A stretch of 64,000 nucleotides of DNA. Source: Gemmatimonadota bacterium. GTDB taxonomy: Bacteria > Gemmatimonadota > Gemmatimonadetes > Gemmatimonadales > Gemmatimonadaceae. The notes under the pieces were generated by a model. That model did no database searches and was not told the DNA's origin. It was given only the letters and a program-made list of their open reading frames with translations. The stretch covers positions 1-64,000 of the forward strand of contig JAQBPX010000014.1 of the NCBI GenBank assembly GCA_028287305.1, read 5' to 3'. The translations under genes and the position numbers were made by a program. This document shows positions 9,249 to 53,473 of this stretch, in pieces (position 1 is the stretch's first letter; each line of letters starts with the position of its first letter).

Positions 9249-9267
9249 ATGCCCACTCTTTGGGCAT
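9249..9267 (+). other. Small inverted repeat overlapping the start codon of the TPR gene
   Basis: ATGCCCA (9249-9255), a 5-base loop CTCTT and TGGGCAT (9261-9267) form a perfect 7-bp stem. The 3' arm contains the first two bases of the ATG at 9266. If it folds in the message it would hide the start codon, so it may modulate translation; it could also be a regulator half-site pair. Confidence 0.4.
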
Positions 9268-11278
9268 GACGCACACCCTGACTGCGCGACGCATCCTGCT
9301 CGTCGCGATTCCCGGCGCGCTCCTCGCGCGGCCCGCTCGCGCGCAGGAGCAGGAGCCCATGGCGCACGACCACGCGCACACCGCCATGGTCGGCAGCGTG
9401 AACTTCCACAACTCGGGCTCGCGCGCGGCACAGGCGCCCTTCCAGCAGGGCGTCGCGTGGCTGCACAACTTCAAGTACCAGGAGGCGATCGCGAGCTTCC
9501 AGCAGGCGGAACGCGCGGACAGCACCCTGGCGATCGCCTACTGGCTGGAGGCGCTCAGCTACAGCCACGTGATGTGGAATGTCGAGAACCTGCCCAAGTC
9601 ACGCATGACGCTCGCGCGACTCGGCGCCACGCCGGCCGACCGGCTCGCCAAGGCGAAGACCGAGCGTGAGCGCGCCTTCGGGGCAGCAGTCGAGGCGTTC
9701 TACGCAGATGCATCACTCGGCGTACGCGCGCGCGCGTACTCGGACTCCCTGCGGGCGTTGGCGGCACTGGACACCACCGATCTCGAGGCGTCTGCCTTCG
9801 CTGCACACGGCGCAATGATGGCGTGGTCGGCGGCCCCGGCGTCGGAACGTGCTGCGCTCGCTGCGGCGAGTCGCTCGCTCGCCCTGCGCGTGTTTCATTC
9901 AAACCCGCATCACCCCGGCGCCGCGCACTACCTGACGCACGTCGCCGACATGGACCCGGCTTCTGCGAAGGACATGCTCCCCTTCGCGCGCGCCTACGAC
10001 AAGATCGCGCCCGATGCGGATCATGCGCTGCACATGCCGTCGCACGTCTTCCTTCCGCTCGGCCTCTGGCACGAAGTGTCCCTGGCCAACGAGCGCGCAT
10101 GGCGTGCGAGTCGCGCGGAAGTGGCGCACGACAAGGCGACGGGAGCCGAGCTGTCGTACCACACCCTCGAGTGGCTGCAGTATGCGTACCTGCAGGAGGG
10201 ACGATGGAGTGCAGCGCGCGCCCTGGTGGACACCGCGCGGCGCGCGCTGGCAGGCGTCCCGATCGCTGACGGGAATGCCGATGCGCGCTTCGCGGCGAAC
10301 GTCCTCGCGTTCACGTACTCGATGGAGTCGGGCGACTGGTCGGAGTGGAAGGCGCAGGCGCCGGACATCGCGATGGCCTTCGCGCAGCCGACGCCCTCGC
10401 TCCGCGCGTGGAACATGACGATGACGAATGCGTACCAGCTCGCCGTCGCGGCATTGATGGCGAGGGCCGACACCGCCTCGGCGCGAGCCGTGGCGGCGCG
10501 CTTTCGGGGCATCGCCGACAGCCTGCCCGCCGATGCGCGTCGCGGCGCCGCATTGCGCTCCGCCGGCGAGCTCGAGGCGATGGTCGCGCGGGCCCAGGGC
10601 GACCTGCCGCGTGCGGTCGGGCTGCTTCGCGCAGCCAGCCAGACGGAGGCTGCGTCGTTTTCCACGCCTCCCACGCGCATCCCGGCGCACGAGCTGCTGG
10701 GCGAGTGGCTGCTGCAGTCGGGGAGCACCGCCGACGCAGTGAGGGAATATCAGGCCGCGCTCGCGGCGCGACCCAACCGGTCGCGGGCGGTGCTGGGGCT
10801 CGCGCACGCGATGAGGGCGGCAGGAGATACCGCGGGCGCCGCGACTGCGTTCGCGCAACTGGGGAAGAACTGGGTTCGGGCGGACATGAGGGTGCGGCGG
10901 AGCATTGGCGCCGATCGTCGCAACCAGGGTGCCGATAAAACCCTCAGGATCTCGTTCGAGGGCGACGCGCTGGCATCGCCTGCAGTCCGGAGCGAGCTCG
11001 GCTCGGCGCTCGGCCGCGGATTCACGAGCGCTGGGCTGCGAGTGCTTCCCCCGCTCGAGCGGGTGGTGCCGCTCGACGCCGAAGGCGCTCGCATGACCGC
11101 GGTCGCGCAGCTGTCGATTGGCACGGCTGCACGCACTCTGAAACTGCGAATGGTGAACGTGTCGACGGGCGAGGTCATTGCGCGCGATTCCATTCGACTG
11201 GGCGCGTCGGGCGACTCGGCGAGGGTGCTGGCGCAGAGGGTAGCTGCGTCAGCGCGCGCCGCAGGAGCGCGGCGGTGA
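9266..11278 (+). CDS. Secreted TPR protein with C-terminal TolB-like domain
   Basis: Product of 670 aa from ATG 9266 (a TTG six bases upstream is in frame but less likely). A signal peptide ends near ARPARAQ. The segment NFHNSGSRAAQAPFQQGVAWLHNFKYQEAIASFQQAERADSTLAIAYWLEAL is a TPR pair; further repeats run through residues about 60-520 (including EYQAALAARPNRSRAVLGLAHAM). The last 110 residues (TLRISFEGDALASPAVRSELGSAL ... VLAQRVAASARAAG) resemble TolB N-terminal/FlgO-like modules seen in kinases of this lineage. Probably a periplasmic scaffold or sensor; partner unknown. Confidence 0.78.
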   Translation: MTHTLTARRILLVAIPGALLARPARAQEQEPMAHDHAHTAMVGSVNFHNSGSRAAQAPFQQGVAWLHNFKYQEAIASFQQAERADSTLAIAYWLEALSYSHVMWNVENLPKSRMTLARLGATPADRLAKAKTERERAFGAAVEAFYADASLGVRARAYSDSLRALAALDTTDLEASAFAAHGAMMAWSAAPASERAALAAASRSLALRVFHSNPHHPGAAHYLTHVADMDPASAKDMLPFARAYDKIAPDADHALHMPSHVFLPLGLWHEVSLANERAWRASRAEVAHDKATGAELSYHTLEWLQYAYLQEGRWSAARALVDTARRALAGVPIADGNADARFAANVLAFTYSMESGDWSEWKAQAPDIAMAFAQPTPSLRAWNMTMTNAYQLAVAALMARADTASARAVAARFRGIADSLPADARRGAALRSAGELEAMVARAQGDLPRAVGLLRAASQTEAASFSTPPTRIPAHELLGEWLLQSGSTADAVREYQAALAARPNRSRAVLGLAHAMRAAGDTAGAATAFAQLGKNWVRADMRVRRSIGADRRNQGADKTLRISFEGDALASPAVRSELGSALGRGFTSAGLRVLPPLERVVPLDAEGARMTAVAQLSIGTAARTLKLRMVNVSTGEVIARDSIRLGASGDSARVLAQRVAASARAAGARR

Positions 11279-11317: not shown

Positions 11318-11531
11318 GGGCGTGAGTAACAGCGAGGCGTGACGCTTGTGGCTGGGGCGTGCGAGCAATGGCCTGAGTAAATACGGCGCGTGGCCGAGGG
11401 CCTGAACTTCGAGGCTCGGGGCCTCATGCCCGGTTGTTCAAGCCCGCGGCCCCACGCCGCTCTTACCCACGCCCGACGACCCCCGCCCCAGCCACACGCC
11501 CCAGGCCTGCAGTTACCCAAGCCTCACGCCT
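11318..11531. repeat. Long-arm imperfect inverted repeat, family 1 copy A
   Basis: The roughly 308-base gap between the TPR gene and the PadR gene is mostly one giant imperfect palindrome. Left arm 11318-11407 and right arm 11436-11531 are reverse complements over about 90 bases with scattered mismatches and small indels; the longest exact stem is 13 bp (11347-11359 with 11484-11496, TGTGGCTGGGGCG). GTAA words recur at regular places in both arms. A 36-base stretch of the left arm (11326-11361) matches 48866-48901 at 32 positions, so copies A and C are one family. No open frame is convincing inside it. Confidence 0.85.
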
Positions 11532-11586: not shown

Positions 11587-11928
11587 ATGCCCGACAAGCA
11601 GGACGTAAAGCAGGGAACGCTCTCCCTGATGATCCTCACCACGCTCGAGGTCCTCGGAAGCCTTCACGGCTACGGCATCGCGCGGCGCATCGAGGAGACC
11701 AGCAAGAACCGCCTCGCCCTCAACTACGGCACCCTCTACCCCGCCCTGCTCAAGCTCGAGCAGGAAGGGTTCATCGCCGCCGAGTGGAAGCAGTCGGAGA
11801 ACAACCGCCGCGCCAAGTACTACGCGCTCACGCCCGCCGGCAGGAAGCAGCTCGCGCGCGAACGGCGCGAGTGGCACCAGACGGCCGACCTCATCGCCGC
11901 CTTCCTCGCGCCGAAGCGCGAAGCGTAG
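11587..11928 (+). CDS. PadR-family transcriptional regulator
   Basis: Product of 113 aa, a single winged-helix PadR domain: KQGTLSLMILTTLEVLGSLHGYGIARRIEETSKN, the wing region LNYGTLYPALLKLEQEGFIAAEWKQSENNRRAKYYALTPAGRKQL and a short C-terminal dimerisation helix. PadR proteins of this short (subfamily 2) type normally repress an adjacent transporter. Its TAG stop shares a base with the GTG start of the following permease (TAGTG), so the two are translationally coupled. Confidence 0.93.
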   Translation: MPDKQDVKQGTLSLMILTTLEVLGSLHGYGIARRIEETSKNRLALNYGTLYPALLKLEQEGFIAAEWKQSENNRRAKYYALTPAGRKQLARERREWHQTADLIAAFLAPKREA

Positions 11929-48856: not shown

Positions 48857-49070
48857 GGGGCTTGGGTAACAGCGTGGCTTGACGCCTGAGGCTGGGGCGT
48901 GGGTCGTCTGGCGTGAGTAACGACGGCATGTGGCTGCGGGCCTGCACTGCATGGCGTGAGGCAACCTTCCGGCCCAGTCGTTCACGCCACTCCCCTCACG
49001 CCGTTCCTACCCAAGCCCGAGGACACACGCCCCAGCCCCACGCCACACGCCAGCGGTTACTCAGGCCCCA
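48857..49070. repeat. Long-arm imperfect inverted repeat, family 1 copy C
   Basis: Fills the gap between converging genes. Left arm about 48857-48955 pairs with right arm about 48971-49070 (revcomp) with mismatches and small gaps; longest exact stem 12 bp (GGCTGGGGCGTG, 48890-48901 with 49026-49037). Left-arm bases 48866-48901 match copy A (11326-11361) at 32 of 36. The right arm overlaps the last codons of the minus-strand hydrolase gene (stop at 49061), so the element also encodes part of that C-terminus. Confidence 0.85.
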
Positions 49071-50161
49071 GGCTTGCGCGCCGCGAGCGTCTTCTCGAAG
49101 AACGCCCACGTCAGCTTCCACGAGTCCACCTGCTCCGGCGAGTCGTTCCGCAGCAGCGTGACCTTGTCCACGCGCCGCGAGAACGAATGCCCCGCCCCAT
49201 CGTCGCCCGGCGGCGGGTTCGTGTACACCTTCACCTCCGCGAGCTTCGGCTTCCGCGCGCGCAGGGCATCCACCAGCTGCTGCGCCTCCTCCCAGTTCAC
49301 GTTCGAGTCGTTCGTGGCGAAGTGCACCATCAGCGGCACCTGCAGACGGTCCACCTGGTAGAGCGGCGAGCGCGCCACGTACTCCGCGTGCTTCTCGAAG
49401 GGCAGCCCGCCGATCGTCGGCTCCGCCGCGAAGTCCTGCGCGTACACGGGGCCCTTCCATGAGAGCCGGAACACCAGGTTCGTGACCGGCACCACCGTCG
49501 CGGCCGAGCGGAATGGATGCTGCTCGCGCATCACGGCGAGCGCGGCGATGTACGCGCCGTGGCTCCATCCCATGATGCCCACGCGTCCCGTGTCCACCTG
49601 GGGCAGCGTCTTGAGGTAGGCCGCGCTGGCGATCACGTCGTCGACTTCACGCCCGCCGTAATCGATCGCATTGTAGAACTCCTTCCCGTAGCCGGCACTC
49701 CCGCGATAGTCCGGCGTGATCACTACGTAGCCGCGCTTCACCGCCTCGATCACGAAGGGCAGCATGGTCTCGTTCCAGTCCCCGTGCACCCCACCGTGCA
49801 CCCACACCAGGGCCGCGTGCTTCGTCACCTTCGCGCCCGGGAGCGGCTGGAACAGGTAGGCGGGAATCTCGAGCGCGTCGCTGCTCCGGTACGTCACATG
49901 GCGGTAGTCCACGATCCCGGCGAGACGCGCCCGCTGGATGCTGTCCGTCACGACCTTCGCGCGGGCCAGAGCCTCGAAGTCCCCCTGCGGCAGCTCCTCC
50001 TTGCGCACGCCCACGTAGAGCAAGCGCGCTCGTGCCGTGTCGATCGGAATCGTGCTGTCTCGCGCCGAGCGGGACAGGCGCGCGGGCCGCAGCTGCGCAT
50101 TCCCCACGGCGGGAGCGAGCGCGAGCACCAGGAGGCAGGGGATCAGGCGACGAAGCGACAT
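49061..50161 (-). CDS. Exported S9-like alpha/beta hydrolase
   Basis: Product of 366 aa from ATG 50161, which opens a signal peptide (MSLRRLIPCLLVLALAPAVGNAQ). Alpha/beta-hydrolase of the prolyl-oligopeptidase/DLH type: oxyanion region ALVWVHGGVHGDW, YVVITPDYRGSAGYGKEFYNAIDYGGREVDDVIASAAYL, nucleophile GWSHGAY, acid FATNDSNV and histidine GAGHSFS. There is no N-terminal propeller, so it resembles a dipeptidyl aminopeptidase catalytic half. The last codons come from inverted repeat C. Transcribed divergently from the symporter gene. Confidence 0.9.
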   Translation of the reverse strand: MSLRRLIPCLLVLALAPAVGNAQLRPARLSRSARDSTIPIDTARARLLYVGVRKEELPQGDFEALARAKVVTDSIQRARLAGIVDYRHVTYRSSDALEIPAYLFQPLPGAKVTKHAALVWVHGGVHGDWNETMLPFVIEAVKRGYVVITPDYRGSAGYGKEFYNAIDYGGREVDDVIASAAYLKTLPQVDTGRVGIMGWSHGAYIAALAVMREQHPFRSAATVVPVTNLVFRLSWKGPVYAQDFAAEPTIGGLPFEKHAEYVARSPLYQVDRLQVPLMVHFATNDSNVNWEEAQQLVDALRARKPKLAEVKVYTNPPPGDDGAGHSFSRRVDKVTLLRNDSPEQVDSWKLTWAFFEKTLAARKPGA

Positions 50162-51512: not shown

Positions 51513-52093
51513 GGTCGTTGCCGGAGCCCGGCGAGTCGCAGGAACGCGACGACGAATCCGACGTCGCGCTCTGCGCAGCCATTCGCGGCGGCAGCAGCAC
51601 GGCATTCGAGCGGCTGTTCCGCGCGCATCATCCGGGAATGGTGGCGTTCGCGACGCGAATGATGGGGCGCGGCGAGGTGGCCGAGGACCTGGTGCAGGAG
51701 GTCTTCCTCTATGTGTGGCGCAATCGTGAGACGTGGCAGGTGCGCACGGGAGTGCGGCAGTACCTCTACTCGGCGCTGAGGCACGGCGCGCTGCGCTACA
51801 TCCGCCACGAGCGCGTGGTGCGGCATCACGCGCCCGAGGCCATTGCGCTGTTCGATCGCGCGCCGCGCATGGCCGACGCAGACCTCACCGCGCGCGAGAC
51901 GGTGCTGCTGGTGCGCGAGGCCATCGCGCGGCTGCCGGAGCGCTGCCGCCTGGTGTACACGCTCCATCGCGAGCAGGGGCTGACGTATGGGGAGGTGGCC
52001 GCGGTGATGGGCATCTCCGCCAAGACGGTGGACGTCCAGATGGGACGCGCCCTCAAGTCGCTCCGGCGGTCACTGATGCCGCACAGGGACTGA
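51509..52093 (+). CDS. ECF-type RNA polymerase sigma factor (FecI-like)
   Basis: Product of 194 aa from GTG 51509. Region 2: FERLFRAHHPGMVAFATRMMGRGEVAEDLVQEVFLYVWRNRETW; region 4: LPERCRLVYTLHREQGLTYGEVAAVMGISAKTVDVQMGRALKSLRRSL. It is the type that pairs with FecR antisigma factors and drives a TonB-dependent receptor operon. The FecR gene follows after 312 bases that contain an inverted repeat. Control by cell-surface signalling is inferred from family and layout. Confidence 0.93.
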   Translation: MRSLPEPGESQERDDESDVALCAAIRGGSSTAFERLFRAHHPGMVAFATRMMGRGEVAEDLVQEVFLYVWRNRETWQVRTGVRQYLYSALRHGALRYIRHERVVRHHAPEAIALFDRAPRMADADLTARETVLLVREAIARLPERCRLVYTLHREQGLTYGEVAAVMGISAKTVDVQMGRALKSLRRSLMPHRD

Positions 52094-52159
52094 GCGCGGC
52101 TCAAGGCACTCCGGGAGCGGCTCGCGCCGTGGTTGCCGGACGCCTCGGGCTACGGTGAC

Positions 52160-52328
52160 TGCGTGGCGTCTGGCTTCTGGCGGGGGCTTCAGTCATCGGG
52201 CTTCGATAACGCCGGCTACGGGCTTCGGAAACTGCTTTGGATGCTCCTTTCCGCGTGGCAGTTCCCCGAAGCCGTAGCTACCGAGGCCCGAGGACCGTAG
52301 CCTGCGCCAGAAGCCAGAAGCCACGCCG
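52160..52328. repeat. Long-arm imperfect inverted repeat D between sigma and fecR genes
   Basis: Arms about 52160-52235 and 52257-52328 pair with several exact blocks: TCTGGCTTCTGGCG (52169-52182) with CGCCAGAAGCCAGA (52305-52318), and GGCTACGGGCTTCGG (52213-52228 region) with CCGAAGCCGTAGC (52266-52278). Internally the word GGCTTC recurs. The sequence is unlike copies A and C. The remaining part of the 312-base gap holds a G-rich stretch and no clear promoter. Confidence 0.8.
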
Positions 52329-52405
52329 TTCCTGAAGCCAAGGTCTTCGCGGGCGGCAGTCACTGGCCGTGTAAGGGTATCGGCGCCGCCGGGACCCATT
52401 TGGGT

Positions 52406-53473
52406 ATGGACGACCGACACTTCCGCCGCCTGGCGCGCTACTTCGCCGGCGAATGCCCGGCAGAGGAGGCGCTCGAGACGCAGCGCTGGCTGGCCGCTGA
52501 CCCGGCCCGGCAGCTCGAGGCCGACCGGCTGCACGACCTCTGGCGAGCCAGCGCCGAATCGGAGCGCGTCGCGAACAGCGATGACGCGTGGGAGCGCCTC
52601 GCCGCGCGCATGCAGGTCACGGAGGGCGTGCCGCAGGTCACGCTCTTCCAGACGGGCGAGACCTCGGTGCATCGCAAGCGCTTCCGCTGGCAGCGCGACG
52701 AATCCTCCCGCTCGCGCATCGCAGTGGTCGCCGCGGCAGCAGCCGTGCTCGTGGCGAGCGCGACGCTCTACGCGCGCCATGAAGGGCTGATCGGCTCCGG
52801 GGGCGACCGCGTGACCACCATCGCCGGCGCGCAGCCGCGCGTGTTCCGCACCGCGCGCGGCCAGCGCGCCGTCATCATGCTCGGCGACGGCACCCGGGTG
52901 GAGCTGGGCGCCGAGAGCGTGCTGCGCGTCAAGCCGTTCGGCGCGGGGGCGCGCGAGCTCACGCTCGATGGCCAGGCGGTGTTCGACGTGGCGCACGACA
53001 CGCTGCACCCATTCCTCGTTCGCTCGGGCAACGCCATCACCGAGGACCTGGGCACGCGCTTCACGGTGCGCGCCTATCACGGCGACTCGCAGGTGGAGGT
53101 GCTGGTGTCGAGCGGACAGGTGGCGCTGCGCGCGGTTGGCGCTCCAGCGAGCTCCGGCACGCTGCTCGGCCCCGCCGACCTGGGGATCCTCGACTCGATC
53201 GGGCGCACCACCGTGCGCAATGGCGCGGACTCCACCCGCTACCTGGCGTGGACCCGGGACCGGCTCGTGTTCGAGAACGCACCGCTGGGCGAAGTGGTCC
53301 GCGAAGTCTCGCGATGGTTCGACGTGAGCATCGACGTGGACGACCGCGTGAGCCTCTCGCGACGCGTGACGCTCAACGTGCCCGCACGCGCACTACCCGA
53401 GGTGCTCGGCGCGATCACCGTGCCGCTGCGCCTCCATTTCTCGATGCGCGGCCGCGACGTCTCCATTCACTGA
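52406..53473 (+). CDS. FecR-like antisigma factor
   Basis: Product of 355 aa from ATG 52406 (a TTG six bases upstream is in frame). The cytoplasmic N-terminus has the DUF4880-type start (FRRLARYFAGECPAEEALETQRWLAADPARQLEADRLHDLWRA), one transmembrane helix lies at about 104-122, and the periplasmic FecR domain follows: TARGQRAVIMLGDGTRVELGAESVLRVKPFGAGARELTLDGQAVFDVAHD ... PFLVRSGNAITEDLGTRFTVRAYHGD. The final part (FENAPLGEVVREVSRWFDVSIDVDD) is the C-terminal STN-like/DUF4974 domain that meets the receptor. Sits between the sigma and SusC genes, as expected. Confidence 0.92.
   Translation: MDDRHFRRLARYFAGECPAEEALETQRWLAADPARQLEADRLHDLWRASAESERVANSDDAWERLAARMQVTEGVPQVTLFQTGETSVHRKRFRWQRDESSRSRIAVVAAAAAVLVASATLYARHEGLIGSGGDRVTTIAGAQPRVFRTARGQRAVIMLGDGTRVELGAESVLRVKPFGAGARELTLDGQAVFDVAHDTLHPFLVRSGNAITEDLGTRFTVRAYHGDSQVEVLVSSGQVALRAVGAPASSGTLLGPADLGILDSIGRTTVRNGADSTRYLAWTRDRLVFENAPLGEVVREVSRWFDVSIDVDDRVSLSRRVTLNVPARALPEVLGAITVPLRLHFSMRGRDVSIH

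Follow-up and report, generated by a model that had tools for sequence, protein, structure and literature searches.

The question raised by this locus is what kind of element occupies the gap between a TPR protein gene and a PadR-like regulator gene in a 64,000-nucleotide stretch of DNA (the window) from a Gemmatimonadota bacterium of the family Gemmatimonadaceae. An earlier note had described a large palindrome there and left its nature between an RNA structure element, a mobile MITE-like sequence and a chromosome-organising site. We found the palindrome to be real, with two arms of about 95 nt enclosing a loop of about 19 nt (Table 1). The segment 11318-11523 folds at −129 kcal/mol, compared with −105 ± 5 for its dinucleotide shuffles (z −4.7; 0/200). 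The arms are less alike than had been described, however. Instead of differing by only scattered changes, they share just 62% identity when aligned and are 71% complementary over the best 73 nt. Read from the outside inwards, the left arm is the G-rich strand, GGGCGTGAGTAACAGC... The element lies outside the predicted genes. A coding origin through an in-frame glycine-rich reading of the arms was rejected because the 7-nt steps shift the frame and stops occur. Rfam covariance models gave no match in the window at the gathering score, indicating no known RNA family. A viral origin of the arm sequence was rejected as well, its exact pattern being absent from viral contigs.

Table 1. Copies of the hairpin element in the window and the genes beside the first copy.
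Feature	Position	Strand	Remarks
TPR protein gene, upstream neighbour	9266..11278	+	stop codon 39 nt before the element
First copy, left arm	11318..11411	-	C-type subfamily; profile match 69 bits
First copy, loop (19 nt)	11412..11430	.	between the arm matches; IVP-less copy
First copy, right arm	11431..11523	+	profile match 72 bits; TTAC boxes and GCC triplets, the latter mostly at 7-nt steps
PadR-like regulator gene, downstream neighbour	11587..11928	+	start 63 nt past the right arm; annotated by eye
Second copy, left arm	48858..48953	-	between convergent genes, 13 nt past the stop codon of a DUF3943 gene
Second copy, right arm	48974..49068	+	contains the end of a minus-strand peptidase-like gene, 49061-50161
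Third copy, left arm	52147..52229	-	G-type subfamily; 65 bits
Third copy, right arm	52255..52339	+	62 bits

The window holds three full copies of this element (11318-11523, 48858-49068 and 52147-52339). A 36-base part of the first left arm had been noticed to recur at 48866-48901. The match of 32 of 36 positions was confirmed, but it is not an isolated one, because it belongs to the full second palindrome (fold z −4.0). As the peptidase-like gene ends inside the right arm of this second copy, the element provides its stop codon (the TGA of CTGAGTAAC on that strand). The third copy, overlooked earlier, folds with z −9.7 and has an ECF sigma factor gene on one side (51518-52093) and a FecR gene on the other (52406-53473).

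A genome-wide DNA search turned up many relatives of the palindrome, and a profile built from 38 arms was run against the genome. The profile search returned 55 arms, each scoring at least 49 bits, and the next match scored 20 bits, indicating that the arm family is sharply bounded. Absence of copies elsewhere in the genome, which had been named as a ground for doubting the element, is thus contradicted by their abundance. The arms make up 23 two-arm hairpins plus single arms. All copies are intergenic or barely touch a gene end; most start 0-20 nt past a stop codon, and several neighbouring genes take their stop codon from the element. No target-site duplications were evident in the copy flanks when these were inspected by eye. 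A second dispersed repeat (about GTCATCCTGAGCNNNGCGAAGGATCTGCCGTT) was often observed between stop codon and hairpin arm in constant orientation (L024, L026, L021, L022, L061, L062).

Twenty-two of the 23 hairpins have loops of 15-70 nt, and the remaining one carries a gene. In this copy, at C4:614497-615103, arms of the same family (58 and 63 bits) surround a 444-nt loop, the protein of which matches PF05635 (E 5.6e-15) and TIGR02436 'four helix bundle protein' (77 bits). It is a four-helix-bundle 23S-rRNA-intervening-sequence protein (IVP); the profile of such proteins matches the solved structure of Xanthomonas XCC0516 (2GSC; E 2.5e-36). No nuclease or transposase signature was found in IVP. 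Based on these arms and this gene, the palindrome at 11318-11523 is probably a non-autonomous, IVP-less, MITE-like derivative of a dispersed intergenic IVP hairpin element, akin to the intervening sequences (IVSs) of 23S rRNA. The genome has eight IVP genes. Inverted-repeat flanks exceed the 95% control level (score 30) in seven of them and the 99% level (score 39) in six, and most of these flanks consist of short repeats, for example GGCCGGTA and GTCTGTG. Since the other IVP genes have other arms, any action in trans on the family of 11318-11523 would rest on the one IVP copy. A separate locus (L021, C4:525685-526690) has near-identical inverted arms around a 217-aa gene (525795-526448) with no Pfam match; the gene may be cargo between the arms, or the arrangement may reflect an inversion.

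A comparable arrangement was found in a second genome of the same family but another genus (G004). There, the arm of one IVP element (L138) is present 54 times. These arms make up 23 hairpins, of which 22 have short loops (48-62 nt); the loop of the remaining one measures 452 nt and holds IVP. These hairpins also lie near gene ends. In sequence, their arms are unrelated to those at 11318-11523, yet one complete copy again stands against 22 short ones. In contrast, the arm of an IVP element in another genome (G018, L129) matched only the element itself, indicating that amplification is not universal. The arm sequence of the 11318-11523 family was absent from every other genome searched, including related genera.

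Next, we consider what is conserved in the arms. In the aligned arms, GGC/GCC triplets are invariant and mostly recur at 7-nt spacing; variable 4-nt spacers separate them, and TTAC boxes are also present. The triplet spacing is broken by the TTAC boxes and by 6- and 15-nt steps, giving a mixed pattern with no clean heptamer array. Two arm subfamilies can be distinguished, and the arms within a copy are always alike (among the 23 two-arm copies, 12 are G-type (GG), 11 are C-type (CC) and none is mixed), indicating that copies spread as two-arm units. The earlier note had taken the arms to be co-evolving, with base pairing rather than sequence being kept. A permutation test speaks against both ideas. 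When each subfamily is taken by itself, the match rate at variable positions is 0.316 for the two arms of one copy, below the 0.383 for arms of different copies (z −2.5; 22 of 3000 permutations gave so low a value). This result indicates that the arms share a sequence constraint, namely the pattern of triplets and TTAC boxes, and are not kept complementary by compensating changes. Perfect arm pairing may even be slightly avoided, given the instability of long perfect palindromes, but the 23 copies are related and make this suggestive only.

The position of the copies raises the alternative that they are host 3'-end elements, either bidirectional terminators or mRNA-stabilising 3' hairpins that benefit the neighbouring genes, with mobility being ancient or incidental. 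Nearly all copies abut stop codons, and the genes on either side are convergent at 13 sites, tandem at 14 and divergent at 3 (convergent versus divergent, binomial p 0.011); the folds are also very stable on both strands. However, a TTTT run occurs within 25 nt in just 5 of 46 flanks, indicating that the palindromes do not qualify as intrinsic terminators of the classical kind. In addition, some copies are single arms unable to fold by themselves, the arms are not kept complementary, and the arm families are species-specific. We therefore regard a host 3'-end function as unlikely to be the primary explanation, and a bidirectional-terminator role as a possible side effect of the hairpins.

The reading of 11318-11523 as an IVP-less derivative of a hairpin element was then placed against IVP loci at large. 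IVP genes occur in 64 of 121 genomes of the phylum, with up to 14 per genome, and nearly all of those listed lack internal stops. The scan of the collection was queried with nine closer IVP sequences, the widest IVP alignment being too divergent. For flanking inverted repeats, 24 of 38 loci from this genome and the phylum lay above the 99% control; at some loci, a clean inverted heptamer array stands right after a stop codon, for instance (CAGGTAT)n in L126, and a clear flanking repeat was missing at others (L111, L116, L130, L140). An additional 80 named loci, the best 80 of at least 588 matches, were fetched by their protein alone and come from cyanobacteria, proteobacteria, Firmicutes, planctomycetes, acidobacteria, Bacteroidota, an archaeon and others. 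Among these best 80 of at least 588, inverted flanks exceeded the 95% level of two controls at 69 of the 76 testable loci and the stricter 99% level at 37. Tandem repeats lie beside 67 of the same 80 loci; their 98 periodic flanks have period 7 in 80 cases and period 8 in 16. Left arms in this best-80 set are G-rich when read outside-inwards in 61 of 64 cases. Genes pointing at the element have their stop codon a median of 4 nt away. All of these figures count loci and not independent events.

Several further observations were made. A GACTTT-like motif recurs at the arm-loop junction of otherwise unrelated elements (L107, L108 and the hairpins of G004, L227-L252). In one genome (G005, L063-L068), (GGCATCA)n heptamer arrays stand directly past stop codons, and at L068 they form a hairpin with gene ends on both sides. 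Many genomes of the phylum have their own multi-copy 7-nt or 8-nt tandem arrays, such as GGCTATT in G006 and GGCTGCGT in G015. The idea that the heptad pattern is limited to the phylum or to period 7 was rejected in its simple form, 8-nt arrays being equally common in the phylum. On a Pseudanabaena plasmid (NZ_CP112875.1, L256), cas6 and cas4 flank an IVP gene. The 23S rRNA IVP is also among the associations listed by a CRISPR survey (PMC10910872), and arrays of repeats near IVP genes may play a part.

Arrays of this kind could also arise as simple heptamer repeats by replication slippage followed by drift, in which case the association with IVP would be indirect. In agreement with such an origin, 7- and 8-nt tandem arrays without IVP occur in other genomes of the phylum, and heptamer repeats are reported from Xanthomonas and Nostoc (PMC4692102). 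However, slippage does not produce 23 dispersed two-arm copies fitting a single profile of 96 positions, or the combination of 22 short hairpins with one bearing IVP in a second genome. In addition, IVP flanks are inverted and periodic far above same-locus controls. Cumulatively, these points make slippage an improbable source of the family.

It is more improbable still that the copies are sites bound by a chromosome-organising or segregation protein. They are dispersed and intergenic, with an inverted motif conserved at triplets, as such sites might be. By contrast, they are partly clustered (five within one 15-kb stretch of contig C10) and absent from related genera, and one loop holds an IVP gene. 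The several arms on that stretch also led us to consider integron attC arrays, which were rejected because pairing of the arms gives symmetric hairpins beside ordinary gene ends. An identity as REP/BIME sequences moved by a RAYT transposase can be virtually dismissed. Such sequences are likewise palindromes found between genes and close to their ends, but REPs are far shorter than the present arms of about 95 nt, and a search for PF01797 that was positive in controls such as E. coli found no such gene in the genome. A resident RAYT is thereby ruled out, as far as the assembly reaches.

The statement that the palindrome has no transposase holds for the copies looked at and extends to RAYT-type genes (PF01797) and reverse transcriptases (PF00078) in the genome. 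The companion statement that it has no known REP or CRISPR features needs a slight correction, as the complete family copy has a PF05635/TIGR02436 gene. As PF00078 matched nothing in the genome, we also rejected a diversity-generating retroelement and the idea that a resident enzyme reverse-transcribes the element in trans. Avd, a component of such retroelements, and IVP are related four-helix-bundle ring proteins (PMC10053308); in contrast to an Avd system, this genome lacks a reverse transcriptase, and only one of four IVPs tested matched the Avd model, weakly and far below the cut-off.

We now return to the derivative of an IVP hairpin element as the preferred reading, and ask how far it resembles known mobile sequences. 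MITEs, ERIC and YPAL sequences are short, dispersed, palindromic and intergenic, and have a coding relative with common ends. The 11318-11523 family shares these properties. It has terminal inverted repeats and multiple dispersed copies (23 with two arms), and its ends are common to a larger coding element in the same genome (C4:614497-615103); the hairpins of G004, with their own arms, show a like arrangement. The coding relative differs, however, in carrying IVP and not a transposase. The suggestion of a mobile MITE-like sequence thus finds partial support in the dispersed intergenic two-arm copies, the gene in one loop and the similar second genome; what was seen is dispersal, and transposition is presumed.

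On this basis, a mechanism can be proposed. The complete form consists of an inverted arm (repeat-rich, and G-rich outside-inwards), the IVP gene (PF05635/TIGR02436) and a second inverted arm; the short form retains the arms, with a 15-70-nt loop in place of the gene. The dispersal suggests that the element moves or has moved. IVP may bind the repeat arms as DNA or RNA, may help the element persist or spread, and could serve IVP-less copies in trans. Insertions would survive mainly at gene 3' ends, where they are presumably harmless and even supply stop codons. Going by the known pentameric structure (PMC4990558) and the spacing only, the ring of IVP subunits might read 7-nt units.

The closest known counterparts are 23S rRNA IVSs such as that of Coxiella burnetii, a hairpin whose loop holds the S23p/IVP gene, with three heptameric repeats ahead of the start of S23p (PMC4990558); solved IVP relatives are rings of five subunits (PMC4990558). 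The likeness extends to the inverted terminal repeats and to a loop of about 430-440 nt (PMC4990558). The hairpin with IVP inside is found here at C4:614497-615103, whereas 11318-11523 itself lacks the gene. Unlike the IVS, the present elements lie between protein genes and not in rRNA (no rRNA match was found in 20 IVP loci, including all eight of this genome, or in the window), their arms are longer and repeat-rich, and many copies are IVP-less. A second counterpart is the heptameric intergenic repeats, GGGAATC in Xanthomonas and GGGGATT/GGGGACT in Nostoc, which Rehm et al. 2015 (PMC4692102) describe as 7-nt G-rich units on the sense strand and within 50 bp of stop codons; in Xanthomonas, they often form inverted pairs. 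The arms of the 11318-11523 family differ from these in being complex and not a pure heptamer array. No mention of IVP genes was found in that paper, and the term 'four helix' is absent. TAACTGA repeats are known from Beggiatoaceae (PMC4679880). A search of open-access papers, with subscription papers and most preprints outside its range, found none linking IVP genes to heptamer repeats.

These comparisons lead to a wider proposal, which we hold tentatively, as having somewhat less than an even chance: 1) IVP genes, taken together with heptamer arrays that are inverted and G-rich outward, make up a single domain-wide class of mobile intergenic hairpins, of which the 23S rRNA IVSs are the rRNA-inserted branch; 2) the heptanucleotide repeats of bacteria, long without explanation, have a main source in this class and its IVP-less derivatives; and 3) each subunit of the five-fold IVP ring may read one repeat, in a manner comparable to TRAP and its triplet repeats. 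The proposal links two old puzzles, the function of the 23S rRNA intervening sequence protein and the heptanucleotide repeats near stop codons. Heptamer arrays also run the risk of being mistaken for CRISPR-like repeats. If the proposal is true, thousands of 'four helix bundle protein' or 'S23 ribosomal protein' genes, together with many 'simple repeats', would be one selfish hairpin class, and IVP would be a candidate repeat-binding protein.
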